From IMG/VR virus record IMGVR_UViG_3300048694_000757, positions 1-43,069 of that record: DNA of 43,069 bases, one strand, 5' to 3'. A model generated the notes under the pieces. That model was not told where the DNA came from and ran no database searches. It was given only the letters and a program-made list of their open reading frames with translations. Both the position numbers and the translations under genes were made by a program. The DNA is from a virus. This document shows, piece after piece, positions 19,959 through 42,498 of this stretch; position 1 is the stretch's first letter, and each line of letters starts with the position of its first letter.

Positions 19959-19975
19959 AATTCCTCCATTGTAAT

Positions 19976-20004
19976 ATTATACCACAACGAGCTATTATTG
20001 TACA
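19976..20004 (-). promoter_or_regulatory. Early sigma70-type promoter 6
   Basis: TGTACA, 17 bp with TGTGG, TATAAT on the minus strand, 17 bases upstream of the 392-residue gene. It heads the SleB, gp33, gp59 transcript. Confidence 0.88.
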
Positions 20005-20237: not shown

Positions 20238-20241
20238 ATTT

Positions 20242-20781: not shown

Positions 20782-20783
20782 GA

Positions 20784-21587: not shown

Positions 21588-21595
21588 ATAAATCC

Positions 21596-21772
21596 TTAAA
21601 ATAAAATCACGATCAATGTCATTGTAGCCACTGCTAACAGCGTACACACAAGACTATACATTACCAACTTTGCTACTGACCACTTCTCACGTTTAGTGAG
21701 TTGTAGGAATGTTGGAATTCCAACATAGAATACAGCAAAGATGATCAAGAATACGAGCCAAAGTCGAATCAT
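21596..21772 (-). CDS. Small two-span membrane protein
   Basis: 58 residues from the ATG at 21772: span one about residues 3-22 (LWLVFLIIFAVFYVGIP) and span two about 39-58 (SLVCTLLAVATMTLIVILF), with a basic loop (TKREKWS). It could be a small holin-like or host-membrane protein. Its stop overlaps the ribosome-binding region of the SPFH gene. Confidence 0.6.
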   Translation of the reverse strand: MIRLWLVFLIIFAVFYVGIPTFLQLTKREKWSVAKLVMYSLVCTLLAVATMTLIVILF

Positions 21773-21782
21773 ATAGTTCCTT

Positions 21783-21808
21783 AAAAAGTGCCGGTTACTC
21801 CGTCCGGC
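21783..21808 (-). terminator. Terminator after the 165-residue basic protein
   Basis: GCCGG-9 nt-CCGGC hairpin followed by AC and a run of five T on the minus strand, about 65 bases after the stop at 21875. The stem is short, so efficiency is uncertain. Confidence 0.6.
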
Positions 21809-21874
21809 GACCTATGCAGCCAGATTCTCCCGAATGTGGTGGTCAGTCTAAGCTTCTTTTAGGAAAGGAGCTGC

Positions 21875-22372
21875 TTAGTCCATCGAATTGCGAAAATCAC
21901 CAAGACCGAACTCGTTGCGTAGAGACACTACGTCATCATAGCCAACGGTATTATCGAAACCACCGGTACCGATATCTGAGTCTTCCTTAGCTGCACGTTT
22001 GGATGCAGTCACTTTGGTTGCGGTAACTTTTGCAACTTTAGCTTTAGGTGCAGACGATTTGACTGTCGACACTTTAGCCTTAACAGCTTTTACTTTTGTC
22101 TTAGGTGCGAGAGCTGCGTCAGCTTCTGGCGTACCTTTGATCAATGCACCTTTCGTAGGCATCTTGTAGACACCTTTCGACACTTGGTTAGTGAAAAAGT
22201 AGAACGGATACTCGTTACCATTGCGTGGATTCAAACCCATCGCACGAATAACTTTGATTGCATCCTTCCACTGGAAAGTGCCACCACTCTTAACTTCAGG
22301 ATGTGCTGCGTAGAATTTCTTCTCGAAATTAGTAACGAAGCTTGCATCATACACACGTGCTTTACGACCCAT
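21875..22372 (-). CDS. Lys/Ala-rich histone-like protein
   Basis: 165 residues. The N-terminal 75 residues form a small helical domain (VTNFEKKFYAAHP, then WKDAIKVIRAMGLNPRNGNEY). Residues about 90-130 are a low-complexity tail of Lys, Ala and Val repeats (VKAVKAKV, TVKSSAPKAKV and similar), like histone H1 or bacterial AlgP tails, and the last 30 are acidic. DNA binding is likely but unproven. It may bind the phage or host chromosome. The preceding small gene overlaps its start. Confidence 0.65.
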   Translation of the reverse strand: MGRKARVYDASFVTNFEKKFYAAHPEVKSGGTFQWKDAIKVIRAMGLNPRNGNEYPFYFFTNQVSKGVYKMPTKGALIKGTPEADAALAPKTKVKAVKAKVSTVKSSAPKAKVAKVTATKVTASKRAAKEDSDIGTGGFDNTVGYDDVVSLRNEFGLGDFRNSMD

Positions 22373-22517
22373 AATTTAACTCCTTTTCAGTTTCACGTTT
22401 AGTCGTTTGTCGGCAAAAAACCAACTTCTTGCTCATGACTATACGCATACGATATTTCGGTGTGCGCAGATCCTTAGCGATAGGATTGCGTTTGCGAGTT
22501 ACTTTTTGCTTAGTCAT
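22362..22517 (-). CDS. Small basic protein
   Basis: 51 residues from the ATG at 22517, strongly basic (KQKVTRKRNPIAKDLRTPKY, then RMRIVMSKK). The core KRNPIAKDLRTPKYRMRIV recalls a short basic protein of many phages. It has no leader: the -10 of promoter 7 ends 5 bases upstream, so the mRNA would begin at or within a base or two of the ATG. The stop lies inside the next gene. Confidence 0.6.
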   Translation of the reverse strand: MTKQKVTRKRNPIAKDLRTPKYRMRIVMSKKLVFCRQTTKRETEKELNYGS

Positions 22518-22522
22518 GATAT

Positions 22523-22551
22523 ATTATACCACAATTTTACATGCTTGTAAA
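22523..22551 (-). promoter_or_regulatory. Early sigma70-type promoter 7
   Basis: TTTACA, 17 bp with TTGTGG, TATAAT on the minus strand. The -10 lies just 5 bases from an ATG, which would make the first message leaderless. Confidence 0.85.
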
Positions 22552-22563
22552 CTGGGGGGCCCC

Positions 22564-22719
22564 TTAAAGTTTATTGCTAATTTTTTGAACACCGAACAAC
22601 ATAGACAAAAGACCTAACATTGCGATGAACAGAAGTGCAGGTAATTGTGCATCAGTGGCATTATCCATGCCGCCAACTGCACCGAAGACCAACAAGAAAC
22701 CAATCACTGTACGAATCAT
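22564..22719 (-). CDS. Small two-span membrane protein
   Basis: 51 residues from the ATG at 22719: span one MIRTVIGFLLVFGAVGG, a loop with DNATDAQLP, span two ALLFIAMLGLLSMLFGV, and a short basic tail. Similar 50-residue proteins are common in phages and uncharacterised. It is the only gene behind promoter 8. A holin-like role is possible. Confidence 0.65.
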   Translation of the reverse strand: MIRTVIGFLLVFGAVGGMDNATDAQLPALLFIAMLGLLSMLFGVQKISNKL

Positions 22720-22750
22720 TTGTTTATTCCTTTTTTCAATTTATGGATCC

Positions 22751-22779
22751 ATTATACCCTATATCCTGCTGTTTGTACA
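22751..22779 (-). promoter_or_regulatory. Early sigma70-type promoter 8
   Basis: TGTACA, 17 bp, TATAAT on the minus strand (TAGGG before the -10, unlike the TGTGG of others), 31 bases before the ATG at 22719. Confidence 0.8.
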
Positions 22780-22806
22780 TAGGCCCCCCTAAAATATTTT
22801 TCGCAG

Positions 22807-22833
22807 AAAAAAAGCCAATGAAATCATTGGCTT
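22807..22833 (-). terminator. Terminator after the 99-residue gene
   Basis: AAGCCAATG-4 nt-CATTGGCTT, a perfect 9-bp stem, followed by seven T on the minus strand. A second perfect hairpin (CCTGGTG/CACCAGG, 22852-22870) lies between it and the gene stop at 22876. Confidence 0.88.
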
Positions 22834-22875
22834 GCACGGAGGGGCTTAGATCCTGGTGTATTCCACCAGGTGAAA

Positions 22876-23175
22876 TTATAACTTTTGTATACTATCTAGC
22901 TTAGCTCGGAATGCTTTTACCTTGCTAGTACGATCTGGCCAGTGAATGTATGCCTTCTCAGGATTTGCTTCTAAGTTTTTCAATAGTGGTTCAATTGACT
23001 TGCGTAGTAGCATGATCTTTTCTTTGAGCGCGTCTACTTCTTCGCTAGTAGCAACAAGCTTGTTGCTTGTCTCTTCGACTTGCGCGAGGGTTTGTTGTAC
23101 TGACTCTAGTTCTTCTTCATCGACTGCGGTAAATCCGAAGTCAAAGTCAATCTCTTGTACTTGATTCTTATTCAT
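22876..23175 (-). CDS. Conserved coiled-coil phage protein
   Basis: 99 residues. A long coiled coil (about 20-75) is followed by NLEANPEKAYIHWPDRTSKV, a motif seen repeatedly in small T4-like phage proteins. Acidic N-terminus (QEIDFDFGFTAVDEEE). No known function. The stop is followed by two hairpins; its start overlaps the preceding gene by 4 bases. Confidence 0.7.
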   Translation of the reverse strand: MNKNQVQEIDFDFGFTAVDEEELESVQQTLAQVEETSNKLVATSEEVDALKEKIMLLRKSIEPLLKNLEANPEKAYIHWPDRTSKVKAFRAKLDSIQKL

Positions 23176-23681
23176 AGTAATTCTTCCAATCGTGTGCCTT
23201 CTTTTGTATTATGAACGATGATGTTGAATCCTCTGTATTTTTGCCATCTTTCACGCCAATGTATGTATAGATCAAATTGCGCTCTATTGCGTTCAATGAT
23301 TTGATCTGTTCTAGTTTCTTGTGTATCTGCCCAAATCGAATCGAATCCCCACAGATGTATTTCATCATAGTCATGTTCTATTGCCCAATCAACTGCTACA
23401 TGACCGGCGCTCATATACTTTTCAAGATACGGTACTTTGTGCCATATCTCAAATTCATGTGTTATCTCTTTTTCTTCAAGCGTTGGCATTGCATAAACAG
23501 AGGTGATGATAGGTTTATGTTGAAATAGAGATCTATTACCGCAATACTTTAAAAATGGTCTTTTATCTAATACAACAGATACATCCACTGGATGATCATG
23601 TATATTACAACCTATAACAAAATTGTCTACGGGGGCATAAAGTGCCAAGCTTGGTCCGTTACCTAATACATCTGCGCGCAT
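23172..23681 (-). CDS. Glycosyltransferase/DUF115-like fold protein
   Basis: 169 residues from the ATG at 23681 (a TTG four codons earlier is also possible). The N-terminal GNGPSLALYAPVD segment is the Gly-rich loop of a nucleotide- or sugar-nucleotide-binding Rossmann-like domain seen in DUF115/MptE-like and some sialyltransferase-like proteins. A C-terminal WAIEHDYDEIHLWGFDSI strand-helix unit is also typical. Role inferred only; it may modify a glycan. A late promoter lies 30 bases upstream. Confidence 0.55.
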   Translation of the reverse strand: MRADVLGNGPSLALYAPVDNFVIGCNIHDHPVDVSVVLDKRPFLKYCGNRSLFQHKPIITSVYAMPTLEEKEITHEFEIWHKVPYLEKYMSAGHVAVDWAIEHDYDEIHLWGFDSIWADTQETRTDQIIERNRAQFDLYIHWRERWQKYRGFNIIVHNTKEGTRLEELL

Positions 23682-23712
23682 TATTTGATCCAAATCAATG
23701 TTTACATGCTTT

Positions 23713-23724
23713 TATTTATAAATA
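23713..23724. promoter_or_regulatory. Bidirectional T4-type late promoter
   Basis: TATTTATAAATA is palindromic and gives TATAAATA on both strands (23717-23724 plus, 23713-23720 minus). It fits the minus gene at 23681 and the plus-strand operon from 23778. Confidence 0.8.
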
Positions 23725-23730
23725 CATCCA

Positions 23731-23752
23731 GAGGCAAAAAATGCCTCTTTTT
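23731..23752 (+). terminator. Hairpin with T-run in the late leader
   Basis: GAGGCA-5 A-TGCCTC followed by five T, only 7 bases after the plus-strand late promoter element. As a terminator it would cut the transcript short; it may instead be a 5' stabilising or attenuating hairpin. The hairpin is visible; its role is inferred. Confidence 0.5.
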
Positions 23753-23777
23753 ACACAACAACAACGGAATTTCAAAA

Positions 23778-24446
23778 ATGTACAAAAAGGTCGCCACAAG
23801 CGTGCTTTTTGTTATGTTTACATTAAACGCTTGGGCAGTAGATCCAATCGTAACTGACTCGACTTCAAATAGCACTGCATATTCAAAATCCGATACAACT
23901 ACTAAAGTTATATCTCCACCTCCAACTGCTGTTGCACCAGCTGTAACAGTAATCAACAATGACGTTTGTGCCACAGCAGCTAGTGGTGCAGTTCAAACAC
24001 AGATTCTTGGCATCTCTATGGGCGGTACAGTTAGAGATATGAATTGTGAAAGAATCAAACTATCAAAGAATCTATATGACATGGGCATGAAAGTTGCAGC
24101 TGTTGCAACGCTATGTCAAGATGATCGTGTATTCCAAGCTATGTTAGATGCCGGTACACCATGCCCAGTTATGGGTAAAATTGGCGAATCCGCAAAAGAA
24201 GTTTGGATTCAACGCGGTCGTGTTAGCGAAAAAGATATCGTAAAACAAACTCCTGAAAAAGCAAAGGAAGAACCACTAAGAGAAACTGGTAAAGATGGAA
24301 AGGAGGCGCAGGAGACTTCACAGTCAAATGCTGAAACGTTTCCAGTCGCAAGACAGTCAACTGTGGTGGCAAATCCCCTCTGTGCTGCTGATCCTAAAGT
24401 TGCTGCTGGTGATCCTGTAAGAAAAGCTGAACTCGGCTGTAACTAA
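23778..24446 (+). CDS. Secreted phage protein of unknown function
   Basis: 222 residues from the ATG at 23778, which starts a clean signal peptide (MYKKVATSVLFVMFTLNAWA, cut before VDP). The longer frame from 23685 would cover the promoter. The mature part has four Cys in a CATAASGAVQ--CERIKLSKNLYDMG--CQDDRVFQAM--GTPCPVMG pattern that recurs in phage proteins, then a charged helix and a terminal domain with two Cys. It leads the late plus-strand operon. Probably exported or part of the virion. Confidence 0.75.
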   Translation: MYKKVATSVLFVMFTLNAWAVDPIVTDSTSNSTAYSKSDTTTKVISPPPTAVAPAVTVINNDVCATAASGAVQTQILGISMGGTVRDMNCERIKLSKNLYDMGMKVAAVATLCQDDRVFQAMLDAGTPCPVMGKIGESAKEVWIQRGRVSEKDIVKQTPEKAKEEPLRETGKDGKEAQETSQSNAETFPVARQSTVVANPLCAADPKVAAGDPVRKAELGCN

Positions 24447-24448
24447 TC

Positions 24449-26851
24449 ATGCGCAAGTTTCTAGTATTCATTTACTGGACTTTTGCTGTTGTTGCTGTGT
24501 GGAGTGGTGATATTGTTGCTCCACAAGCACAAGTTGGTTCAGTAATAAACACAGTCACTGATACTTCTACGACTGCTAACCTAATCACGTCACCATTATC
24601 GCCAACTGTTAATGCTACTACACCAGGTGGATTCACTGGTGGTAGTTCAGTTGGATACAATGCATCAACTAATGCGTATTATTTTGGCTATATGCAAAGA
24701 ACTATTGCTACTTCTGTAGCAATTAATAATGCATTACAGGGTAGCGGTGTACAGGTGAATGGTGTTAAGTATGGTATGACATATCTTAACGGTGCTGATT
24801 CATATGGCACATTAAGCATGGCAGTTAATGTTACTAGTAACACTGGCACAACTCTACAGTCATATAATCATTCATTTAATACTCAAAACTCTACTTGGCA
24901 GCAGTTTGACCAAACACAAACGTTTACTAACCCATATGCTTTAGCAAATTTGGGCAATGTTAGCATGTCCATTACAGGCAAAGACTCTCGTTTTTGGGCA
25001 GGTTATTATGGTCCACAAGTGAAAGATCCATATCTTAAACTAACATACGGTTCTGATCCTAAGACATACTATAACATTTCTGATGATGGTTATGTTCCAG
25101 TTGCTTTACCATTTACGTTTCCATTTTATGGTAGAAACTTTACACAATCATATTTCTTTTCCAATGGTGTAGTTGGTTTCTTAGATCCTACCACTCATTG
25201 GAATAGTTTTTGTTGTGATGGTGTAAATTTAACTAACAATCCTGGATCTCCATGGCATTTCGCGATCTATGCTTTGCAGACAGACTTGATTGCAGCAAAT
25301 GCAAATGCTAAGTTCTATACACAAACTGATAGTAGCTCATACATGAAGTATGCATGGAGCAACATCAACGAATATGGTACACAAAACTTAAACACATTCA
25401 GTGCAACTATTAAGCCAACCGGTTATATTGGTATCCAACATGATGCTATCAACGTTCAGTATCATAACGTAACGACTGGCATCGCAGGTGATTTATCACA
25501 AGGTCAATATAGTCAATACTATAATGGTCCAGGAAGATCATTTCCATATACAGCTGGTTCTGTGATCACTTTTACTGGAACAGAAACAAATCTATGTTTC
25601 TCTAATCCATTAAGTAACCCTTCGTGTCCAGGATATGCAGCTGCGTACTACTCACAGCAGTGTTCTATTAGTGCACTGTATGACTCATCATGTCCAGGAT
25701 ATGCAGCTGCATATTTAGATCAACAGTGTTCGGCTAATCCATTATATTCCACAACTTGTCCTGGGTATGAAAGAGCATATTTTAATCAACAATGCTCTTT
25801 AAATCCACTATACAACATCAATTGCTCTGGATATGCTACTGCTTATCACAATCAACAGTGTTCATTAAATCCTCTTTATGCAACAGATTGTGTTGGTTAT
25901 GCAGATGCTTATTATGTTCAACAATGCACAGCAAATCCGCTATATGATAGCGGATGTACAGGTTATGCAGCTGCATTTAAAGCTCAACAATGTAGTTTAA
26001 ATACATTATATGCAACAGACTGTCCAGGTTATGCTCAAGCATATTTCAATCAACAATGTTCTCTGAATGGACTCTATGATAGACTTTGTCCTAATTATTC
26101 TACTGCTTATGCTACCAAAATGTTGCTCGAACAACAAAATACTGCTAGCATCGTTGCCACCGCTGGTGTTGTTGCTTCTACTGCACCTAGCACTAGCACA
26201 GGAACTGCCACCACATCAGTGAGTAGTGATGGTACTGTATCAACTACTACTACATCAGCAACTGGTAACACAACAGTTGATAAAGTAGTTGCTGCACCAA
26301 CAAGTACAACAAACACAGCTGCAGCTCCTGCCGCTCCAGTTCAATTAGTACAATCAGCACCTCCTCCATCATCACCAGTTGCACCTCAACAACAGGCTTC
26401 ACAACAAGAAAAGAAACCTGAAGGTGGTCAACAAAAACCTGAAGGTAGTAGTCAACAACAAGCTGGTGGACCACAACAACAAGGCGGAGGTCAACAAGGT
26501 GGTGAGAAAACACAACCGACTAATCGTCAAGCTTTAGCTGAACGTAGATTAGAAGCTGCGCGAGCAAAAGCAGTTGAAGAAGGTAAAAATATGGCAGGCG
26601 AAATTGGTAAAGCATCAGATCTTGAAGCACAAAAAGCAGTACAAGGCGTTGTCGTTGCTGCTATGAACTTCGTTCCAGGATTTGATCGTTATTCAACAGT
26701 GTTTGTACCAGATGTGATCGGCTATAAACCGTTTACTGTCTATAATAATCAAAAAACCGTAGATAATGCTAGATTGATGAGAGGATTATCTGGTGCCTCA
26801 GATAGATTACATGAGGAAATCGTAGCATCACAATATAACAAAGGAAATTAA
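24449..26851 (+). CDS. Secreted repeat protein with eight 22-residue Cys repeats
   Basis: 800 residues. Residues 1-20 are a signal peptide (MRKFLVFIYWTFAVVAVWSG). The N-terminal 370 residues are beta-rich, with a nidogen-like FPFYGRNFTQSYFFSNGVVG block. Eight tandem repeats of exactly 22 residues follow, at about 383-558 (25595-26122): each has C-S-x-N-x-L-Y, C-P-G-Y-A-x-A-Y and ends in QQ. A Thr/Ser/Ala linker and a Gln/Pro/Gly low-complexity stretch (about 640-690) follow, and a helical C-terminus. An exported adhesin-like or virion protein; function inferred from layout. Confidence 0.7.
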   Translation: MRKFLVFIYWTFAVVAVWSGDIVAPQAQVGSVINTVTDTSTTANLITSPLSPTVNATTPGGFTGGSSVGYNASTNAYYFGYMQRTIATSVAINNALQGSGVQVNGVKYGMTYLNGADSYGTLSMAVNVTSNTGTTLQSYNHSFNTQNSTWQQFDQTQTFTNPYALANLGNVSMSITGKDSRFWAGYYGPQVKDPYLKLTYGSDPKTYYNISDDGYVPVALPFTFPFYGRNFTQSYFFSNGVVGFLDPTTHWNSFCCDGVNLTNNPGSPWHFAIYALQTDLIAANANAKFYTQTDSSSYMKYAWSNINEYGTQNLNTFSATIKPTGYIGIQHDAINVQYHNVTTGIAGDLSQGQYSQYYNGPGRSFPYTAGSVITFTGTETNLCFSNPLSNPSCPGYAAAYYSQQCSISALYDSSCPGYAAAYLDQQCSANPLYSTTCPGYERAYFNQQCSLNPLYNINCSGYATAYHNQQCSLNPLYATDCVGYADAYYVQQCTANPLYDSGCTGYAAAFKAQQCSLNTLYATDCPGYAQAYFNQQCSLNGLYDRLCPNYSTAYATKMLLEQQNTASIVATAGVVASTAPSTSTGTATTSVSSDGTVSTTTTSATGNTTVDKVVAAPTSTTNTAAAPAAPVQLVQSAPPPSSPVAPQQQASQQEKKPEGGQQKPEGSSQQQAGGPQQQGGGQQGGEKTQPTNRQALAERRLEAARAKAVEEGKNMAGEIGKASDLEAQKAVQGVVVAAMNFVPGFDRYSTVFVPDVIGYKPFTVYNNQKTVDNARLMRGLSGASDRLHEEIVASQYNKGN
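25595..26122 (+). repeat. Eight in-frame 66-bp tandem repeats (22 residues each)
   Basis: The first copy starts at the TGT at 25595 and the eighth at 26057. Each copy has two Cys 10 residues apart, an LY and a GY-A-AY signature. Copies differ in DNA sequence, so they are old and not freshly duplicated. Confidence 0.85.
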
Positions 26852-26852
26852 A

Positions 26853-27173
26853 ATGGCAACACAAGATACAAAGGGCGCATTCATAGAGAAGTTGTTATTT
26901 GCTCTATTACCGCTGATCATGGCAGGTGTAGGTTATTTACTAAATTCAGTAAGTCAACTTAATCACCAAGTAACAATTTTAGAAAGCAAAGTAAGTCTAG
27001 TAGTTACACAGGATAACAAACAAGCATCTAACACTGGTAGTGAACTTGCTCGTGAAAAACTACGCCAAGACTTAACAGAAGCAATTCAAAAGAATCGTGA
27101 TGCGATCCAGGCGAATAAAGAAATGATTGCTATTATCGAAGAAAAATTAAAACACATGAACAAAGGAAAGTAA
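26853..27173 (+). CDS. Membrane-anchored coiled-coil protein
   Basis: 106 residues: a short N-terminus, one transmembrane segment (about 12-31, KLLFALLPLIMAGVGYLLN), then a helical coiled coil to the end, rich in Gln, Lys and Glu. It follows the repeat protein by 1 base and precedes the next gene by 1 base. It may anchor or line up with the 27175 protein; a spanin- or holin-like role is possible but unproven. Confidence 0.65.
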   Translation: MATQDTKGAFIEKLLFALLPLIMAGVGYLLNSVSQLNHQVTILESKVSLVVTQDNKQASNTGSELAREKLRQDLTEAIQKNRDAIQANKEMIAIIEEKLKHMNKGK

Positions 27174-27174
27174 A

Positions 27175-27687
27175 ATGTCAGAAGAAATCAAAAGCGTCGA
27201 TGCAAAGATTGACGAAGCAGAAGCCGCTGTAAAGAAGTATGCTAGTAAAGATACAGTAATCAGCATTGGTGGATATGAATTTACACCAGCTAAGTTGATG
27301 GTTGCGTTTACATTAGCATCATCAATTCTTGGTGGTTTATATGGAACGTTTGAAGTCTACAAAGACTATCAAAGTATGAAGAAGCGTATCGCTGAGTATG
27401 TTGCGCCGGACCTTTCAGAACTTCAAGCTAAGATGGATATCGTAGTTGAAAAGTCAGAGAAGTCTGTTCAATACACTCAAGATATTAAGAATGATCTTAA
27501 ACAAGACATTCGTCGTTTAGAAGGTGTGGTTGATTCAGTTGAACGTAATTCAAAAGCAACTGAACGTGAGTTGAGTGTAGATATGAGAAACCTTCGTAAA
27601 GAAACTGAATTAGCTATTAAAGAAACTAATTCTAATGTTGATAAGAAGATTCAACGAGCATTAGATAACCCGTTAGCTAACAAATGA
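27175..27687 (+). CDS. Membrane-anchored coiled-coil protein
   Basis: 170 residues. A helical N-terminus (to about 40), a transmembrane segment (about 42-62, LMVAFTLASSILGGLYGTF), then a coiled coil of about 100 residues, very rich in Lys and Glu. The layout mirrors the upstream 106-residue gene. Its stop overlaps the start of a 41-residue frame (ATGA). Function unknown. Confidence 0.65.
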   Translation: MSEEIKSVDAKIDEAEAAVKKYASKDTVISIGGYEFTPAKLMVAFTLASSILGGLYGTFEVYKDYQSMKKRIAEYVAPDLSELQAKMDIVVEKSEKSVQYTQDIKNDLKQDIRRLEGVVDSVERNSKATERELSVDMRNLRKETELAIKETNSNVDKKIQRALDNPLANK

Positions 27688-27809
27688 TTAATGTACTCAT
27701 AGATTTATGGGTGAATCATGTACTACATCTTTGGTTTATGCCATACTTTATAGCAGGTAAAACCACAGAGAATGAACTGCACGAATGTGCAAAAAGAAAG
27801 GGAGCGTAA
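27684..27809 (+). CDS. Small hypothetical peptide, 41 residues
   Basis: An ATG overlapping the upstream stop (ATGA) opens a 41-residue frame with a His/Leu/Trp-rich half (INVLIDLWVNHVLHLWFMPY) and a charged end. Its stop codon falls in the loop of the terminator hairpin at 27798. It is coupled to the preceding gene. Confidence 0.5.
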   Translation: MINVLIDLWVNHVLHLWFMPYFIAGKTTENELHECAKRKGA

Positions 27810-27823
27810 GCTCCCTTTTTTTA
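27797..27823. terminator. Bidirectional terminator between convergent operons
   Basis: Stem GGGAGC (27800-27805), loop GTAA, GCTCCC (27810-27815), extended by A:T pairs and seven T on the plus strand; the minus side also has a T-rich run. It closes the plus-strand late operon and the minus-strand genes below it. Nearly the same hairpin occurs at 5603. Confidence 0.88.
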
Positions 27824-28003
27824 TTTCTTCTTAGTATCTTCTACTTCAAGCTTTTTGTGTTTCTTGATCTCTTTGCATTGCTCAGTTACTTTTCCTGTCT
27901 TTGCATCCTTAACTTCTACACAAGCCTTTTCTTTTTTGACCTCTCCTGCATACACATATTGTGTGCCTAAGGCGATACAAATTGCCAATAAAATTTGTTT
28001 CAT
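27821..28003 (-). CDS. Small secreted two-Cys protein
   Basis: 60 residues. Signal peptide MKQILLAICIALGTQYVYAG, then a short Lys/Glu-rich mature part (VKKEKACVEVKDAKTGKVTE, then QCKEIKKHKKLEV) with two Cys 15 residues apart that can pair in the periplasm. Such tiny secreted proteins occur in several phages; role unknown. It is the last gene of the minus-strand lysis region, ending at the shared terminator. Confidence 0.7.
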   Translation of the reverse strand: MKQILLAICIALGTQYVYAGEVKKEKACVEVKDAKTGKVTEQCKEIKKHKKLEVEDTKKK

Positions 28004-28222
28004 TTATTTTCCTTTCGATGAAAATTTTTCTGAAGCTGTAAATCCTAAACCAGCTACTACTATATACATCATTGAATCAAACAACGCTGGTGTAACTTTA
28101 TGACCAAGAGTATCAGCCACAAATCCACCAGCACATAACAAGAATGACAAGAGAGTAATAACTCTTTTTGAAGAAACAGTCCCGTTATCTCCATCTTGTA
28201 ACATACTTGATAACCAATTCAT
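28004..28222 (-). CDS. Holin-like membrane protein
   Basis: 72 residues with two hydrophobic segments (about 20-38, VITLLSFLLCAGGFVADT; about 48-64, LFDSMMYIVVAGLGFTA) and a short charged end. Size, two spans and the nearby GH19 endolysin fit a small holin. Start and stop touch the neighbours. The assignment is by context and hydropathy. Confidence 0.6.
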   Translation of the reverse strand: MNWLSSMLQDGDNGTVSSKRVITLLSFLLCAGGFVADTLGHKVTPALFDSMMYIVVAGLGFTASEKFSSKGK

Positions 28223-28223
28223 T

Positions 28224-28646
28224 TTATAACTCTGGTTGTGGTGGTTGCACAGGCATTGGTTTACCCGTTGAACTCATTACAACTTGCGGTGTGAAGTTGG
28301 CAACTGGTGCTTGAATCACTACAGGTTGTGGAGGAGGAGTTGGATTTAAGATAGCAGCTTGTGCCAATGTATTTTTCGCTGCAGCATCTGCATTTGCTTG
28401 TGCTTGCTTTTGCGCTTCTAACATTGCCTTTTGATCTTCTGGTTTTTGACCAGCTAACATGATACCAGAGAGAGTACCAGTTAAGAACGTCGCGATAGGT
28501 ACAATCAACTCAAAGAATTTTTGGTCGATAGGACTAATCGCATTCAGTGGTTGTGTAACGAAGATCAATGAATACAAGACAACGAATACGATTCCGAATA
28601 ATGTAAGTGTTAGACAAATGCCGATGAAAAATTTTAATCGAGCCAT
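28224..28646 (-). CDS. Phage membrane protein, two spans
   Basis: 140 residues from the ATG at 28646 (GAGCAGCT site); the frame's earlier ATG at 28748 would overlap the upstream gene by 77 bases. Two transmembrane segments (about 5-30 and 48-68, with IVPIATFLTGTLSGIMLAG), then an Ala/Gln-rich helix and a Pro/Gln-rich tail. The PIATFLTG-LSGIMLA block recurs in T4-like phage proteins near lysis genes. Possibly a holin or regulator. Confidence 0.65.
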   Translation of the reverse strand: MARLKFFIGICLTLTLFGIVFVVLYSLIFVTQPLNAISPIDQKFFELIVPIATFLTGTLSGIMLAGQKPEDQKAMLEAQKQAQANADAAAKNTLAQAAILNPTPPPQPVVIQAPVANFTPQVVMSSTGKPMPVQPPQPEL

Positions 28647-28671
28647 CAGCTGCTCTTCTGTGTATATGAAA

Positions 28672-28959
28672 TTATTTTCCACAGTTGGCTCCTTGATTAG
28701 TAGGTTGTACACTAATTGCTTTACTTTGTTGAGTAGTATCTTTATCATCTGGCATTCCTAATCTAGGGTCTCTTCCACCCTTAAAAACATGTTCTGGACA
28801 AGTTCTCGTCACGTCACATAGTGGTTTCTTACACATCTCTTTATCCCAATTGTGGGGATCTTGACATGGGTATCTAAATTTATCTTCGCTAAAAATTGCT
28901 AATCCTAATGGAAATAGTAAAAGCAATAATAGCCATCTTACTAGCTTTATATCACTCAT
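28672..28959 (-). CDS. Cys-rich secreted or anchored protein
   Basis: 95 residues. One N-terminal membrane segment (about 6-23, LVRWLLLLLLFPLGLAIF), then a compact Cys-rich unit (CQDPHNWDKEMCKKPLCDVT, then RTCPEHVF) with four Cys, and one more Cys near the end. Similar Cys-rich small proteins lie next to endolysins in related phages. It is likely periplasmic, possibly spanin- or Rz1-like, though no lipobox is seen. Confidence 0.65.
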   Translation of the reverse strand: MSDIKLVRWLLLLLLFPLGLAIFSEDKFRYPCQDPHNWDKEMCKKPLCDVTRTCPEHVFKGGRDPRLGMPDDKDTTQQSKAISVQPTNQGANCGK

Positions 28960-28960
28960 A

Positions 28961-29584
28961 TTATGCTCCCATTACATGCAGAGCGTGTTGATAGTGGGCA
29001 ATTCGATCTTCTAGACCGATGAATCCGCCATTAATCGCTTTTGTTAATCCTTTGATATCACCTGCATCTGCAAATTTATTTAGGTTATTATTTTCCCAGA
29101 ACCAACAAGCAGATTGTGCGGCACCTTCAAACGTTTGTAGGTATTCTGCGGCTTCTTCTACTGGAATATCTAATGACGCAGCAAACCAAGAATAGTTTGA
29201 TTTACCAGTCAATTGGATTAGACCTCGACCACAGTAACGATATCCGTCACCTGTTTCAGGTCCACCGTTACCCATACGGTTTGCATAAACTAAGTTAGCA
29301 ATTGCTTCTTGTTTATTTGGCTTAGAAGCATATTCATTTGCCATCTCATCTGTCGGGAAATACTTCGGAAAGATTTTACGAAGTGTTACAGCTTTATAAT
29401 TTAAGTTTTCCTTAAGAACCATAAACCCACCGGATTCATGTGCGCATTGCGCAATAAATGCAGCAATTCGCTGTGGTGTGTTTATCTCATATTCTGGTAG
29501 CAATTGTGCTAGTGCACGGTGCCAATGGTCAACGTATGGATTCTTTGGGAGAAGCTGTTTTAATTGTTCTAATGATAATTCCAT
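28961..29584 (-). CDS. Endolysin, GH19 family (paralogue 1)
   Basis: 207 residues from the ATG at 29584 (GGAG site). GH19 enzymes cut beta-1,4 glycosidic bonds in chitin or peptidoglycan. Catalytic Glu is in the AHESGGF motif (about residues 45-51), followed by LKENLNYKA and the GYRYCGRGLIQLTGKSNY substrate-binding block (about 115-135). The fold length is normal for a single-domain phage lysozyme. No signal peptide, so release needs a holin. A TATAAATA late promoter lies 48 bases upstream. Confidence 0.92.
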   Translation of the reverse strand: MELSLEQLKQLLPKNPYVDHWHRALAQLLPEYEINTPQRIAAFIAQCAHESGGFMVLKENLNYKAVTLRKIFPKYFPTDEMANEYASKPNKQEAIANLVYANRMGNGGPETGDGYRYCGRGLIQLTGKSNYSWFAASLDIPVEEAAEYLQTFEGAAQSACWFWENNNLNKFADAGDIKGLTKAINGGFIGLEDRIAHYQHALHVMGA

Positions 29585-29611
29585 CTTCACTCCAATATAT
29601 GTTGAATAATT

Positions 29612-29627
29612 CATGTCATATGACATG
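29612..29627. repeat. 16-bp perfect palindrome
   Basis: CATGTCATATGACATG, a perfect dyad between the GH19 start and its late promoter. It could be a repressor operator or a coincidence. Confidence 0.4.
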
Positions 29628-29631
29628 TTAC

Positions 29632-29639
29632 TATTTATA
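29632..29639 (-). promoter_or_regulatory. T4-type late promoter for GH19 endolysin
   Basis: The plus strand reads TATTTATA, giving TATAAATA on the minus strand, 48 bases upstream of the endolysin ATG. Confidence 0.7.
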
Positions 29640-29659
29640 TGTTACATATATCGGGAGCG

Positions 29660-29683
29660 AAAAAAGGGGACAAACGTCCCCTT
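29660..29683 (-). terminator. Terminator of the 84-residue gene
   Basis: AAGGGGAC-4 nt-GTCCCCTT, 8-bp stem, followed by T-rich sequence on the minus strand. It separates the 29740 gene from the late endolysin unit. Confidence 0.85.
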
Positions 29684-29739
29684 ATATCTATCCCCTGGCC
29701 CTTATAGATCTATCTATAAAAAGCCATTTCTCTGCAGCG

Positions 29740-29994
29740 TTACTTACTGCGTGTATTGGTGGATGCTGTGGCATAAGTTGCACCGCTACCACTTACAAAC
29801 TCATTGAGTAACTTTGCTTCGTTGACGATCGCTTCAGCAGTTGGGAATTTATAATTCTTTAAGAATTCCTTTTGTACTTCTGGATCATCAAATGCTCGAG
29901 TCTCCTCAAGCTTTGCAAAATACTCTGTTGAGAGTCTATCTTTAGCAAGCCCTAATAGTTCTTGTCTAATCTCGAAAGGTGTTTTATTAGTCAT
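29740..29994 (-). CDS. Conserved phage hypothetical protein
   Basis: 84 residues. Begins MTNKTPFEIRQELLGLAKDR, then FPTAEAIVNEAKLLNEFVSG. This short helical pattern is common in T4-like phages and has no assigned role. It lies between two terminators (29660 and 30016), so it is its own transcription unit, though no clear promoter was found. Confidence 0.7.
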   Translation of the reverse strand: MTNKTPFEIRQELLGLAKDRLSTEYFAKLEETRAFDDPEVQKEFLKNYKFPTAEAIVNEAKLLNEFVSGSGATYATASTNTRSK

Positions 29995-30015
29995 GTGTGT
30001 GTTTCCTTGTGTGTT

Positions 30016-30042
30016 AAAAAAAAATACCAGTGGCCGACTGGT
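30016..30042 (-). terminator. Terminator after the outer-membrane protein gene
   Basis: ACCAGT-5 nt-ACTGGT stem with an A-run (30016-30024) giving nine T on the minus strand, 15 bases after the stop at 30058. Confidence 0.88.
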
Positions 30043-30057
30043 GGCGGTTTTTACTGC

Positions 30058-30510
30058 TTAGAATGAAACTTTCAAACCAGCAGAAACTACATTACCATCA
30101 AAGTTATTTACGCGAGATTGAATCGCGCTTTGATAGCGATAATCTGCAGTCAATGCGACTGATTTAGTTAATGAATAGCTTGCGCCTACACCAACTGAGC
30201 CTTGCCAACCACTAGCAGTAGATGTTGGATCAACAAATGCAACACCAACTTTAGGAGTAATAGTAACTCCAGCAACTGTTGCTACATCATAACCAGCAAC
30301 TAAGCTGTAACGATTAGTGTCATTAGAGTTTTGTGTATAGCGTTCAAATCCGCCAGTAACAGAAGTCTTACCAAACTTTTCGCCGAGTGTTACACCAAAA
30401 CCATTTTTATCTGGATTTTGTGAATAATCACGTTGAGCTGTAAGACCAACTTCTACTGCTTGTGCAGAACCTGCTACTAACAATGCTAAAATAGCTAATT
30501 TAACTTTCAT
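30058..30510 (-). CDS. Outer-membrane beta-barrel protein
   Basis: 150 residues. Signal peptide MKVKLAILALLVAGSAQA, then alternating hydrophobic strands with aromatic ends (for example RYSLVAGYDVATV, WQGSVGVGASYSL, VALTADYRYQS) and a C-terminal AGLKVSF ending in Phe. This is the hallmark of a small (about 8-strand) outer-membrane barrel recognised by BAM. It confirms a Gram-negative host. It may alter the host surface, for instance to block superinfection. It directly follows the tmRNA in the same direction. Confidence 0.85.
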   Translation of the reverse strand: MKVKLAILALLVAGSAQAVEVGLTAQRDYSQNPDKNGFGVTLGEKFGKTSVTGGFERYTQNSNDTNRYSLVAGYDVATVAGVTITPKVGVAFVDPTSTASGWQGSVGVGASYSLTKSVALTADYRYQSAIQSRVNNFDGNVVSAGLKVSF

Positions 30511-30592
30511 TGAAATATTTCCTTTTCTAGTTTAAAGATCAAGAGTTGGTTTTTCTGTTACGAGGTAAACCAACTTAAACCCTAAGCAGCGT

Positions 30593-30625
30593 TTAGGCTG
30601 CTAATGCATAACTTTCGTCATTTGC
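30593..30625 (-). other. tmRNA tag reading frame ANDESYALAA
   Basis: Resume codon GCA at 30625-30623, then AAT GAC GAA AGT TAT GCA TTA GCA GCC and TAA. The stop lies in a GCAGC/GCTGC helix as in other tmRNAs. The tag ends in -ALAA, the ClpXP-type degron. Confidence 0.92.
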
Positions 30626-30730
30626 ATTTACTTAGTTTGCTTCTTCGGCCAAGTTTCCTCAACCCTACGGGTTTCACATTCCCGTGTTGCCGTCTCTACT
30701 ATCTACCTCTGTCGAAACCATGGCATCCCC

Positions 30731-30831
30731 ATCAAAAACATACTAAGGTGAAATGAACTTACTAAGTAGAGGTTCCGGCTTACCAATCCTGATCCCAACC
30801 TTTCGGTTTTGTAGAGATTTAAGTATGTTTT
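30731..30831 (-). other. tmRNA intervening (excised) segment
   Basis: About 100 bases between the CCA end and the coding piece. It is closed by an 11-bp helix AAAAACATACT (30734-30744) with AGTATGTTTTT (30822-30832) that extends the acceptor stem, as expected for a permuted precursor cut by host RNases. Confidence 0.75.
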
Positions 30832-30886
30832 TGGTGGAGATGGGCGGAGTCGAACCGCCGTCCAGAAGTCCTTCGCTTTGAAGGGA

Positions 30887-31075
30887 TTACAACAATTCCT
30901 CGTCCACTTTCTTCCAGCTATTTTTGCCTTCAGTATAGTGTCCTATATATTTTTGTCCAGTCTCTTGATCTATTAATAACCATTTACCAGGACATTTTGT
31001 GCGAATAGTTAAAGTTTTAGCTTCATCTAATTCTTTAACACTTGTACCATCTTTTAATTTACGTTTTCTGTCCAT
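30887..31075 (-). CDS. Hypothetical small protein
   Basis: 62 residues, starts MDRKRKLKDGTSVKELDEAK and ends in a Lys/Glu-rich tail. A small alpha/beta look with a KWLLIDQETGQKYIGHYTEG strand-turn-strand. No function recognised. It overlaps the stop of the upstream oxygenase by 22 bases and ends at the tmRNA acceptor piece. Confidence 0.6.
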   Translation of the reverse strand: MDRKRKLKDGTSVKELDEAKTLTIRTKCPGKWLLIDQETGQKYIGHYTEGKNSWKKVDEELL

Positions 31076-31656
31076 GTTGCAACAATATATTTTTCATTAG
31101 AAATAGGAGGATTGCCGCGATGAGTATGTGTATATCCAACAGGGAAAAGAACAATTCTTCCTTTTTTTGGTTTAATTCTTCTAGGATAATACAAAAATTC
31201 AGTTTCTCCACCCTCGTCAACATCATTAAGATAAATCAAAATGGCCAATATTCTATTACTATCTTCTTTTCCACTATTTTCATAATGCCATACATGATAT
31301 CCACCACCTACCGATGTTCGTTGAAGTCTATGACCCCATAATCCATAGCCTCTAGACAATAAAACATCATATTTTTTATTATATTCATCAATACATTCAC
31401 GAATGGCTTTATTCATGACACCAGCTAAGAATGTATTAATGACTTTTACATCATCCAAATGTTCTTCATGTAAAAAATATGTTGTATCATCTTTGTGAAC
31501 TTTTTCAATTCTTTCAGCTTCTTGTCTACTAAACGTACGTTTATTAGTTAATGCCCATTGATCCACATAATGGTAATGATTAATCAATTGTTCACAAATA
31601 GTTTCTGGCAAAATATCATCAAATACACCAATAAAATCTTGAATATCACTTTTCAT
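31054..31656 (-). CDS. 2OG-Fe(II) oxygenase, prolyl-hydroxylase-like, HxE variant
   Basis: 200 residues. These enzymes hydroxylate protein or small-molecule substrates using 2-oxoglutarate, O2 and Fe(II). The iron site is H124-x-E126 (WHYEN) and H179 (THTHRG), with K189 for 2OG binding. The usual HxD is HxE here. A core of YLNDVDEGGETEFLY and PKKGRIVLFP agrees with the P4Hc fold. It is the separate eighth member of this class, 6 kb from the seven-gene array. It overlaps the next gene by 22 bases. Confidence 0.85.
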   Translation of the reverse strand: MKSDIQDFIGVFDDILPETICEQLINHYHYVDQWALTNKRTFSRQEAERIEKVHKDDTTYFLHEEHLDDVKVINTFLAGVMNKAIRECIDEYNKKYDVLLSRGYGLWGHRLQRTSVGGGYHVWHYENSGKEDSNRILAILIYLNDVDEGGETEFLYYPRRIKPKKGRIVLFPVGYTHTHRGNPPISNEKYIVATWTENVN

Positions 31657-32255
31657 TTTAATTTGTCTCTCATTTCTTCATATAATTCTGTTCGCTTAGC
31701 TGCATTGATAACTCCACCGGTGATTCGCTTAGTCATACCGATCATATCTTCAGCATCAGCATAAGCATTTAAATCTTTAATCATCCACACCCAACATGCT
31801 GAATGTACAGCGCCTTGTGGTGTGATGATATAATCTAATACATCTTCTATGCCAAAACCTGCATGTTCTGCAAATTTTCTATATGAATCTTTTCCAGTGA
31901 TATGTAATAAGCCTCGTCCTTTATAGCGAGAACCATCACCAGATTCTTCACTACCATTTCCAAATCTATACGCATATATTCTATTTGCGATAGAATTTTC
32001 TTTATGCATATATGCTTCAGCAATCACTTGATTATTAAAGTGAGCAGGAAACAATATCATTAAATTGTTTCTGCTATAATTTAGATTTTCTTCAACGCAC
32101 CTGAACTCTAACGACTCATATGATGCTTGTGAAACAAATGCCGCCACACGCTTAAGCGTATTAATCTTATACTTATCAAAGAATAGCTTGAATGCCTCTA
32201 TCCAAACTTTTTCTTCGATTACTGATTCAAGCTTATCATAATATAATTGTAACAT
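31653..32255 (-). CDS. Endolysin-like GH19 protein (paralogue 2)
   Basis: 200 residues, paralogous to the gene at 28961. Shared blocks: IAAF/VAAFV--A--ES, ENLNYS, GDGSRYKGRGLLHITGKDSY and a SACW-W helix. The catalytic Glu lies in ASYESLEF, so His before Glu is replaced by Tyr. No signal peptide. The likely activity is peptidoglycan hydrolysis, though the changed residue may alter it; it may act as a virion lysin rather than a lysis enzyme, because it lies beside tail genes. Confidence 0.82.
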   Translation of the reverse strand: MLQLYYDKLESVIEEKVWIEAFKLFFDKYKINTLKRVAAFVSQASYESLEFRCVEENLNYSRNNLMILFPAHFNNQVIAEAYMHKENSIANRIYAYRFGNGSEESGDGSRYKGRGLLHITGKDSYRKFAEHAGFGIEDVLDYIITPQGAVHSACWVWMIKDLNAYADAEDMIGMTKRITGGVINAAKRTELYEEMRDKLK

Positions 32256-37297: not shown

Positions 37298-37843
37298 TTA
37301 CGTATAATGTAAGTATGTACCAGCAATGTATTTTGCATTAGAGACTGGTGGAAGACCAGCATGTGGGTGAGTCCACATTGGGGGAAACATTAGCAAACGT
37401 CCAGTTTTTGGCTGTACTCGCATATCATGATCGATACCGATGAAGGCAGTTTCACCGCCTTCTGCTAAATTATTGAGATAGAAAAACATGACAAGGAATC
37501 GACGAGCAGATGCATGATCTCCTACGTCAACGTGTTCCCTAAACTCATCTTTACCACCGACTTCATACTTCTTCATGCGAACTTGTTCAAAGCCGATTTG
37601 TTTAGGGAAAAATTTAACGTTATGTTGTTCGCAATACTTATCAACGAATGGCTGTACTCGCGAAAGGATATAATTTTGATCTTCAGCAAATAATGGAATT
37701 TGACCGAAATTTATTTCATTGAAGTTCTTGTATGAATCTTCTCTACGAATCCACGCAGTTTTATTGCGTTCAAATTTATCAATAAGACCTTTGCAAAAGT
37801 CTTCTTCTAAAACATTATCAAATACAGAGATATAATTCTTCAT
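37298..37843 (-). CDS. 2OG-Fe(II) oxygenase, prolyl-hydroxylase-like (type A)
   Basis: 181 residues. P4Hc-type dioxygenase: iron ligands H104-x-D106 (REHVDVGDH) and H161 (THPHAG), with K171 for 2OG. The core YLNNLAEGGETAF and PKTGRLLMFP match the prolyl-4-hydroxylase fold and the lone enzyme at 31054. Substrate unknown; could be a phage or host protein. It ends the seven-gene array; its start overlaps the preceding stop by one base. Confidence 0.9.
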   Translation of the reverse strand: MKNYISVFDNVLEEDFCKGLIDKFERNKTAWIRREDSYKNFNEINFGQIPLFAEDQNYILSRVQPFVDKYCEQHNVKFFPKQIGFEQVRMKKYEVGGKDEFREHVDVGDHASARRFLVMFFYLNNLAEGGETAFIGIDHDMRVQPKTGRLLMFPPMWTHPHAGLPPVSNAKYIAGTYLHYT

Positions 37844-38493
37844 TATTCTACCACAAAATTAATATTAAGCAAATACCTAGTTTTAAAATTCATTGGATTA
37901 CTAGGAGCGTGATAACGAAGTCCATCGAAACATACAATTCTTCCTTGTTGAGGAGTAACTCGTGCAGCTACTGTCGTATGAATATCAGAACCAGGTATAT
38001 TGTGTTTTGGTTCGAATCGTTCATTCATAATGATAGTATCACCATCGCTGTCATTAATATAATAAATTAAAGTCTTGTGTTGGATCTCTGTATCTGTATG
38101 AATACCATTACAGTTATTTTCAGAAAACCCGTGTAACGGAATCTGTTTATTAATTTTCATCCGCAAGATTTTTTTTACATTTAATCCGGCTTTTTCAGCA
38201 AACAAATCTAGTATGAATAAACCCATGTAATAAAAACATTCTGGTTGATGAATCACTTCTGGATCATCTGGAGATCTTGCACCACCAGTATAAGCTAATT
38301 TTACCAAGCATGGAGATTCTTTAATTTCTAAACCTTCGCATGAATAATTGCGTGCTTTCCAATAATCTCCAGCTGAGACTTCTTCATTAAAATCAAGCCA
38401 ATGTAAATTTCTATCTGTTACAGAGTCTAGAATTCTTCTTTGTAAATTTTTAGGAATAAGATCATCATATACGACAATATCATCATTATTCAT
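37843..38493 (-). CDS. 2OG-Fe(II) oxygenase, DSDGDT type (B1)
   Basis: 216 residues. Iron ligands H132-x-D134 (GIHTDTE) and H195 (GLRYHAPSNP), with R206 near the end (KTRYLLNINF) for 2OG. A signature YYINDSDGDTI follows the first histidine. Sub-family B occurs four times in this cluster. The start overlaps the stop of the upstream gene by 4 bases (ATGA). The substrate is unknown; an earlier helical domain of about 100 residues could bind it. Confidence 0.87.
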   Translation of the reverse strand: MNNDDIVVYDDLIPKNLQRRILDSVTDRNLHWLDFNEEVSAGDYWKARNYSCEGLEIKESPCLVKLAYTGGARSPDDPEVIHQPECFYYMGLFILDLFAEKAGLNVKKILRMKINKQIPLHGFSENNCNGIHTDTEIQHKTLIYYINDSDGDTIIMNERFEPKHNIPGSDIHTTVAARVTPQQGRIVCFDGLRYHAPSNPMNFKTRYLLNINFVVE

Positions 38494-39101
38494 TGTGTAC
38501 CTCCTAAATTCATATTAAGTGTAAGTCTTCGTTTAGCTATTGTTGGAGTGCTGCTACTATGATAGCGCAACCCATTAAATTTAATACAACGCCCAGCTTT
38601 TGGCTCAATTCTAGCAGCTATAGATAATTCTATTTCTTTATTATTATGAGATGGTTCAAACATTTCGTTATAAAGAATTGTATCTCCATCACTATCATTA
38701 ATATAATATAATAAAACATCATGTGGATATTCCGCATCAACGTGTGGAAAATTAATATTGTTTATTGGCGCATTATTAAGCTGATTAATTTTCATTCTAT
38801 ATAAACGATTAAAGTTCCAATTAGTTTTTTGTGCAAACATTTCACATATAAACAATGAATGTTGTAAAGCCCAATATGGATCATACCACTCTTTATCATG
38901 AAAAACAGAATGTGTCAATCCTGGATTATCAATCCACTCAATTTCATCAGTTGACTTATATGTTCTAGGAATTTCAGAACGTGTAATATTTTCTAAATAA
39001 AACCAATTAAAATCTTTATCTAAAGCTTTTTGTGCATATCGTTCAACAAAACTCTTTGGCAAAAAATCATCTAATACAATTATATCATTTGGTAAATTCA
39101 T
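38490..39101 (-). CDS. 2OG-Fe(II) oxygenase, DSDGDT type (B2)
   Basis: 203 residues from the ATG at 39101, so that it begins MNLPNDIIVLDDFLPKSF like its paralogues. Iron ligands H120-x-D122 (FPHVDAE), H181 (GLRYHSSS) and R191/R192 (KRRLTLNMNL). YYINDSDGDTI is shared with B1, B3 and B4. The first 100 residues are diverged from B1, which suggests different substrates. Its start overlaps the C1 gene's stop by about 17 bases. Confidence 0.85.
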   Translation of the reverse strand: MNLPNDIIVLDDFLPKSFVERYAQKALDKDFNWFYLENITRSEIPRTYKSTDEIEWIDNPGLTHSVFHDKEWYDPYWALQHSLFICEMFAQKTNWNFNRLYRMKINQLNNAPINNINFPHVDAEYPHDVLLYYINDSDGDTILYNEMFEPSHNNKEIELSIAARIEPKAGRCIKFNGLRYHSSSTPTIAKRRLTLNMNLGGTQ

Positions 39102-39723
39102 AGTTTGCCGCAATTGATATGCGTTCTCCATGTGGATTTTTAAATGGCCAAACAAAGTGTTGACATTTTGGTGGAAAAATAAAAATATCTCCTACTTCTG
39201 GTCTATGGGCAAATTTATCATTAGAAAAATCCATGTATTCACCATATTTCCATGCAACCATTCCACCATGACATGCAATGTCTTCTTCAGTTGGTGCTGG
39301 AATTTGAATATACATTACGAATGACACATCCCCCGGGTGATGATGTAATGCATGCATATCTCCAGGTTTTTGTATATTTGCCCAAAGCGATGATTCTCCA
39401 TCTTTATCTTTATAAGGACGCATCGTTTCAACTTGTTGTATACATTTTTCAGATAATTCTTCTGACATACGTATTGATCCACGTAATTCTAAAAAATAAT
39501 TTAGAATATGACGTTTAACTTCACTGTCAAATAACTTAAATTCTTCAGGAGTAAAATCCATCATTGGATTTGTACCATTAGTAAACTGTCCTGCTTTAGA
39601 ACTTCTATTTAATGATGGATCTTGACGTACACGTTGAATAGCATTATAACACATCTCTAAAACATTAGCATCAATACTTGCTTTATAAATTGCTGGACCA
39701 AATGGATATATTACTGCGGGCAT
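39085..39723 (-). CDS. 2OG-Fe(II) oxygenase, TIGR02466 type (C1)
   Basis: 212 residues from the ATG at 39723, where GGAGG lies 3 bases upstream; the 39735 start has none. TIGR02466/PF13759 pattern: a HALHHHPGDVSFVMYIQIP block supplies the H-x-H/D iron ligands, and the distal His lies in CQHFVWPFKN, with an ERISIAANYEF strand containing the 2OG Arg. The N-terminal half is helical. Two type C genes lie next to each other, flanked by type B pairs. Confidence 0.85.
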   Translation of the reverse strand: MPAVIYPFGPAIYKASIDANVLEMCYNAIQRVRQDPSLNRSSKAGQFTNGTNPMMDFTPEEFKLFDSEVKRHILNYFLELRGSIRMSEELSEKCIQQVETMRPYKDKDGESSLWANIQKPGDMHALHHHPGDVSFVMYIQIPAPTEEDIACHGGMVAWKYGEYMDFSNDKFAHRPEVGDIFIFPPKCQHFVWPFKNPHGERISIAANYEFTK

Positions 39724-40364
39724 GGTTCCTCCCAATCAATACAAAACGAAACAGTCATTCTTAGTTCATCAGTCTTATTGGTTTTGATTTCGTGATCTAA
39801 ATAACCTGGCCAAATTAACATATCACCAGTTTCAGGCATAAATGAATAATAGTTATTTAAAAGCCAGCGCTGACTCATTTCTTGATTTTTATAATACGCA
39901 AATGCATTTGGATTAGTAAATTCAATTGATCCACCGACCATAGATTTTGGTACGTTCACATAGTATGTTCCAGCTAATAAAAATCCTGCATGATGGTGTC
40001 TAGCTTGATATCCATGTTTAGGATTAATATTAAACCACATCTTTGAAATTTTTAAACGAAGATCAGATTGAACTTCATTGCATCGTAAATCGCATTTTAA
40101 AACGGATATACGATTAGCTACATATTCACTAGAATTTTGTAATATTTTATTGACTAAAGGATAAAATTCTGGTAGTGTATGCAATTCACTAGTAAAATCA
40201 TTATAAAAATGAGTAGTAAATCCAGTATTATAAAAATTACCATCATTAACAGGAGATTTTGAATACAAATTCAAAATCCATTCTTTTATTGTTGTATGTG
40301 TATCTTCTGACAGTTTATCTCTAGAATATAATATTTCTGTAGAAAATGGAGTGATAATTTTCAT
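39711..40364 (-). CDS. 2OG-Fe(II) oxygenase, TIGR02466 type (C2)
   Basis: 217 residues. ARHHHAGFLLAGTYYVNVPK carries the iron site (no Asp after HHH, as in this sub-family's H-x-H variant), DHEI supplies the distal His, and ELRMTVSF the 2OG Arg. The N-terminal half is mostly helical with a WILNLYSK segment. It overlaps C1 by 13 bases and B3 by 4 bases (ATGA). Confidence 0.83.
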   Translation of the reverse strand: MKIITPFSTEILYSRDKLSEDTHTTIKEWILNLYSKSPVNDGNFYNTGFTTHFYNDFTSELHTLPEFYPLVNKILQNSSEYVANRISVLKCDLRCNEVQSDLRLKISKMWFNINPKHGYQARHHHAGFLLAGTYYVNVPKSMVGGSIEFTNPNAFAYYKNQEMSQRWLLNNYYSFMPETGDMLIWPGYLDHEIKTNKTDELRMTVSFCIDWEEPCPQ

Positions 40365-42273: not shown

Positions 42274-42281
42274 TAATTCTT

Positions 42282-42357: not shown

Positions 42358-42395
42358 ATAGATCAAAATACACTCTTTGAATACACTTTGATTTA

Positions 42396-42470: not shown

Positions 42471-42498
42471 ATCATCTTTCGAGGTTTATGTTTTCGTT

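Follow-up and report, generated by a model that had tools for sequence, protein, structure and literature searches.

A permuted two-piece tmRNA gene of the beta type in a T4-like phage, and a hairpin that appears to stand in for part of PK1

In the present study we followed up a sequence-only reading of the IMG/VR virus record IMGVR_UViG_3300048694_000757 (43,069 bases; "the window" below is this whole stretch), which had proposed a phage-encoded, permuted two-piece transfer-messenger RNA (tmRNA) with the tag ANDESYALAA. RNAs of this kind release ribosomes that have become stuck. We conclude that the window carries a complete permuted two-piece tmRNA gene of the beta type, that the phage is T4-like and that the RNA probably works by the mechanism proposed below, a reading to which we give a probability of about 0.88. 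The gene order, the pairings with their covariation, the G3-U70 pair and a tag frame without interruption are the parts of this reading that can be seen directly.

Identity of the gene and conservation of its structure

The identity of the gene is supported by the agreement of independent tools. ARAGORN called a permuted tmRNA with the tag ANDESYALAA at 30502-30924 on the minus strand, and two Rfam 15 models gave strong matches on the same strand: RF04321 (tmRNA_permuted) at 30894-30593 with 131.7 bits (gathering cut-off 47, E 1e-25) and RF01850 (beta_tmRNA) at 30958-30536 with 122 bits (gathering cut-off 84, E 8e-37). These were the checks that the earlier reading had called for, and they bear out its proposal. 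The assignment to a T4-like phage likewise stands, as the window encodes gp32, gp33, gp59, gp48, gp2 and gp4 together with tail-tube and baseplate-hub proteins of this kind. The parts of the gene, all on the minus strand, are as follows.

30536-30924 (-): whole precursor of the permuted tmRNA, with approximate outer ends (ARAGORN, RF04321, RF01850)
30832-30900 (-): acceptor piece with P2 and P strands, T-arm, acceptor 3' strand and encoded ACCA; 5' end approximate (Rfam, pairing, covariation)
30836-30842 (-): acceptor 3' strand CATCTCC
30832-30835 (-): encoded ACCA
30731-30831 (-): intervening segment, 101 nucleotides
30822-30832 with 30734-30744 (-): helix of 11 base pairs closing the intervening segment (covaries)
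30540-30730 (-): coding piece, about 190 nucleotides, starting at G30730; 3' end approximate (Rfam)
30724-30730 (-): acceptor 5' strand GGGGATG, with the G3-U70 pair (pairing across the aligned sequences)
30709-30719 (-): 5' motif GGTTTCGACAG
30668-30684 (-): first hairpin of the PK1 (first pseudoknot) region, CGGG-AAUGUGAAA-CCCG (covarying stem)
30647-30664 (-): extra hairpin GGUUGAG-GAAA-CUUGGCC, where the PK1 form has its second stem (seen only in viruses in the searches made)
30593-30625 (-): tag frame ANDESYALAA with resume codon GCA and stop TAA (ARAGORN)
30585-30602 (-): stop-codon helix AGCAGC/GCUGCU (pairing counts)
30544-30575 (-): helix of nine base pairs ending the 3' side of the coding piece (pairing counts)

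The acceptor piece thus lies 5' of the coding piece with the intervening segment between them, the tRNA-like domain has an acceptor stem, a T-arm, CCA and the G3-U70 pair, the tag frame has its resume codon and its stop, and the score exceeds the Rfam gathering cut-off. Every element that the sequence-only reading had named was located on the minus strand, from the acceptor strands, ACCA, the TTCGACT T-loop and the GGTTTCGACAG motif to P2, the tag, the stop-codon helix, the 3' helix of nine base pairs and the helix of 11 base pairs in the intervening segment, whose first base is the A of CCA. That reading had its helices right; it did not name the strand, and it overlooked the extra hairpin at 30647-30664.

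For pair counts we aligned the window gene with 25 viral relatives from IMG/VR and two bacterial genes, 28 sequences in all. In this alignment the structure of the window gene can pair in 87% of cells (75.5% after shuffling), 36 of its 60 pairs changed on both sides as against 21 in the shuffles, and the covariation score was 0.260, compared with 0.100 for shuffled and at most 0.081 for slid alignments; none of 500 shuffles scored as high. Compensatory changes were found in all nine scored helices, the weakest being that of the tag stop, and 100% of cells pair in the acceptor, the T-arm and the outer P helix. Both sides changed in 9 of the 11 pairs of the helix closing the intervening segment, and in all nine pairs of the 3' helix, of whose cells only 66% pair. 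The third acceptor pair, G3-U70, is the alanine signal of tmRNA. It is G-U in 28 of the 28 aligned sequences and in 127 of 131 viral genes of a larger set, collected with a pattern that fixed the U side and left G3 free. The mature pieces align at about 80-97% with those of the closest relatives, most of the intervening segment is unalignable, and the tag frames remain open, most of them ending in ALAA. The folding of the single sequence is by itself only mildly unusual (z -2.15).

Could the gene be a decaying copy of a host tmRNA, without function, which was picked up by accident or left behind at an integration site? tmRNA genes often serve as integration sites, and fragments of them occur in prophages (PMC9004378). 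However, the gene in the window is complete, it covaries strongly over diverse phages with its tag and G3-U70 pair kept, its position upstream of gp33, gp59 and gp32 is kept in related phages, and there is no integrase among the annotated proteins of the window, of which not every gene was scanned. We therefore regard a decaying copy as extremely improbable.

An extra hairpin at the place of PK1

In the window the P helices are followed by the first hairpin of the PK1 region, the nested extra hairpin, and then GAAGAAGCAAA and the resume codon. Relatives such as L073, as well as bacterial genes, have after the P helices the PK1 form GGCGA-x-stem-UAA-x'-AGC, in which the x/x' pairs UGA/UCA, AGA/UCU, CUGA/UCAG, CUGU/ACAG, CGAA/UUCG and AGG/CCU were seen. 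For the loop of the first hairpin in the window form we found no conserved partner that would make the second stem of PK1; the nested hairpin is there instead, and the Rfam models RF01850 and RF04321 treat it as an insertion. It therefore appears, as far as such comparisons can tell, that in this subgroup of phages a nested hairpin has naturally taken the place of PK1's second stem. In E. coli, tagging was kept when PK1 was swapped for a small hairpin (Tanner 2006; Wower 2009, as cited in PMC3968760 and PMC4236655). The plainest explanation is that these phages did likewise.

The hairpin pattern AGGRTTGRGNNNNCYYGGYCGAAGAAGCAAA matched at least 120 viral stretches. Among the matches listed, 100 of 121 sites lie within permuted tmRNAs called by ARAGORN, 21 are uncalled and none is in a one-piece gene. 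We did not count the positions fixed by the pattern as evidence of covariation. The positions left free, however, covary almost perfectly. At 93 distinct sites among the matches listed, the free pair R4-Y6 is GC in 47, AT in 45 and AC in one, and the free pair R8-Y2 is GC in 37, AT in 31 and GT in 25; the four-base loops of these sites are mostly GNRA or GNNA. The bacterial search covered one phylum, the Pseudomonadota, and gave no match: the pattern was present in 0 of 398 genomes and, with two mismatches allowed, in none of 399 genomes from the order that includes Advenella. A blastn search of phages with the hairpin region alone also gave no match, and we found no earlier description of the hairpin in the open-access literature, so that one published elsewhere could be missed. 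The viral sequences show two further peculiarities. At the same position L109 has another hairpin of unrelated sequence, followed by the same AAGAAGCAAA, and five genes of the hairpin form (L306, L339, L327, L370 and L392) have apparent tags of 27-31 amino acids; in several of these a stretch that looks like an insertion comes first and a tag of normal appearance last.

The window gene and L073 are 90% identical outside the PK1 region, yet they differ in form, and on a tree built without the region three forms, the third of which (C) is classed only by default, need 23 changes of form; this tree is poorly resolved and its bootstrap unsettled. Because of these changes, the PK1 region seems to have been exchanged between phage tmRNAs. 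It may be that in the tmRNAs of many environmental phages, a large group and for the most part T4-like, PK1 gave way in evolution to a conserved hairpin unseen in the bacterial genomes searched, that this cassette moves between phage tmRNAs and that it marks a tuning for infection, such as faster resumption, use of the SmpB of several hosts or resistance to host RNases. We offer this wider proposal tentatively and consider it less likely than not.

An alternative is that the RNA does carry out trans-translation and that its main benefit is to escape host enzymes which attack the host tmRNA, by means of the altered PK1 region. The variation of this region among the phage forms, scattered as they are over the tree, would suit such an escape, and toxins that cut tmRNA are known (PMC5408214). 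Yet no such enzyme has been identified here, drift or recombination could likewise produce a mixture of forms, and the tree resolves poorly, so we consider escape as the main benefit unlikely.

Proposed mechanism and distribution of the gene

The RNA most likely functions as an ordinary tmRNA with host SmpB. Eight phage records, the window included, contain no SmpB gene, and the protein must therefore come from the host. A single transcript would be cut by the tRNA-processing enzymes of the host: RNase P would make the 5' end of the coding piece, 3' enzymes would expose CCA, and the intervening segment would be discarded while the two pieces remain paired. The RNA would then be charged by the host alanyl-tRNA synthetase and delivered by host SmpB and EF-Tu to stalled ribosomes, where translation would switch to the tag frame at its resume codon, GCA; the product, now tagged with ANDESYALAA, would be passed to host ClpXP or ClpAP. 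The nested hairpin probably takes over the role of PK1 in keeping the region before the tag in shape. The phage would likely benefit from a steady rescue of ribosomes late in infection, with host transcription off and broken messages accumulating, and it may also gain the control of ribosome rescue that had been suggested from the sequence. Perhaps the RNA is instead a decoy that disturbs trans-translation of the host, like the tag-less tmRNA of phage DS6A (PMC11915505). Against this, the gene still has its tag frame, its resume codon and its degradation signal, all of them intact and conserved, which makes a decoy very unlikely.

Several points weigh against the reading that we prefer, a complete gene working by this mechanism. 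The window is a fragment of a metagenomic virus, and in the relatives no more than 68% of cells pair in the stop-codon helix, which is partly a matter of alignment. In forms without the extra hairpin the second stem of PK1 covaries, with a mean of 2.06 base pairs against 0.69 in shuffled sequences and none of 2000 shuffles as high, but the 16 distinct cases include a few misplaced matches; an earlier automatic test had given weak support for PK1 in these forms, with 10 of 200 shuffles reaching the observed value. The apparent absence of PK1 from the window form rests on there being no conserved complement found.

How common are such genes? A pattern of 25 bases from the acceptor piece matched at least 120 viral stretches of IMG/VR, and among the matches listed 72 viral loci, the window included, hold a permuted tmRNA called by ARAGORN, most of them with neighbours of the T4-like kind. 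A paper of 2022 (PMC9004378) had already described Melnitz, a cultured T4-like phage of Methylophilales, along with 53 unique two-piece tmRNAs of phages, and annotated permuted tmRNAs are present in Mosig and in Menderavirus isolates as well. The suggestion that a permuted tmRNA is rare in a T4-like phage therefore fails; permuted phage tmRNAs were already known and prove to be common, and the window gene is one more example.

The gene had also been likened to two-piece tmRNAs of hosts. This comparison is too simple, since only about 8 of 200 genomes sampled from the order of Advenella have a strong permuted match and the window gene falls into a group of phages only. A tree built from 87 mature sequences places this group (the window with L073, L068, L043 and L015) on the beta side and Melnitz and Mosig on the alpha side; the branches are long and the details unsure. 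In the same tree, beta-type genes from bacteria alternate with viral genes, so transfer of tmRNA genes between phages and bacteria is likely, to judge from the sequences. Two of the assemblies with a strong permuted match, G158 and G179, contain a standard one-piece tmRNA gene as well; in G158 the permuted gene groups with the viral locus L064 and may therefore belong to a prophage, or to a phage contig that was binned wrongly. A blastn search of phages with the tmRNA matched the acceptor piece only, in Pseudomonas and Stenotrophomonas phages. The tag alone is uninformative about the host because ANDESYALAA is common to many beta- and gammaproteobacteria, mostly in the one-piece form. The many and varied viral genes, set against scarce beta-type permuted genes of bacteria, raise another question: have phages spread this form of the gene?

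Neighbouring genes and comparison with known systems

Two genes adjoin the tmRNA gene directly.

30887-31075 (-): small gene 5' of the tmRNA, 62 amino acids (phrog_4098, E 1.5e-12), with the same sequence in the near-copy L373
30058-30510 (-): outer-membrane beta-barrel gene directly 3' of the tmRNA (PF13505, above cut-off)

The phrog_4098 gene has its TAA stop inside the acceptor piece and overlaps the outer P helix strand, so that its message would be severed when the tmRNA is processed. Homologues of the beta-barrel gene follow the tmRNA within about 200 nucleotides of the hairpin motif in L391, L393 and L323, and a terminator-like site (30042-30026) lies past this gene in the window. A -35/-10 promoter match at 30959-30932 was given no weight because the scan found fewer such sites than in shuffles. 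The near-copy L373 is another viral stretch, which matches window positions 18192-31154, the tmRNA included, at 99.98% identity; a megablast search of phages with the right half of the window gave no match. Further features of the minus strand are two endolysin genes (phrog_181) flanking the tmRNA at 28961-29626 and 31653-32255, 2OG-Fe(II) oxygenase genes at 31054-31656 and 37298-37843, a series of similar-looking genes next to them (37843-41558), which may be paralogues, two phrog_7084 paralogues of unassigned function at 13961-14671 and 15764-16486, and four tRNA genes (Val, His, Lys, Gly) at 42197-42764, which adjoin an HNH endonuclease gene (41606-42163).

Among the closest known parallels are Melnitz and the pelagiphage Mosig (PMC9004378; MZ577097, MT647606), T4-like phages whose permuted gene, as here, stands upstream of gp33, gp59 and gp32 in a record without an SmpB gene; in these two it lies just upstream, in the window about 12 kilobases lie between. 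Their tmRNAs group with alphaproteobacterial ones and have no extra hairpin, whereas that of the window is of the beta type and has one. A glutamine riboswitch was reported in Melnitz; in the window a low-threshold Rfam scan around the tmRNA gene gave no riboswitch. The cultured Stenotrophomonas Menderavirus phages Moby and Bhz51 also carry a permuted gene like that of the window, and their acceptor piece is 80.6% identical over 72 nucleotides to that of L096, a relative of the window gene. Unlike the window gene, theirs lies inside a tRNA cluster before nrdA, and it keeps the PK1 form (GGCGA-CUGA...UCAG) with the tag VAANDDSYTVRIAA, where the window has the hairpin form and ANDESYALAA. The intervening segment is longer in the window than in beta-type bacteria (101 against about 25-43 nucleotides). 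The gene scores far above the cut-offs of both Rfam models, and the extra hairpin is an insertion relative to both. The altered E. coli tmRNA of Tanner 2006 and Wower 2009 (as cited in PMC3968760 and PMC4236655) resembles that of the window in having a hairpin at the place of PK1; it is a one-piece laboratory construct, while the window version is natural and virus-borne. The conserved phage hairpin is thus a natural counterpart of the laboratory experiment, and it offers a direct way to examine the purpose of PK1.
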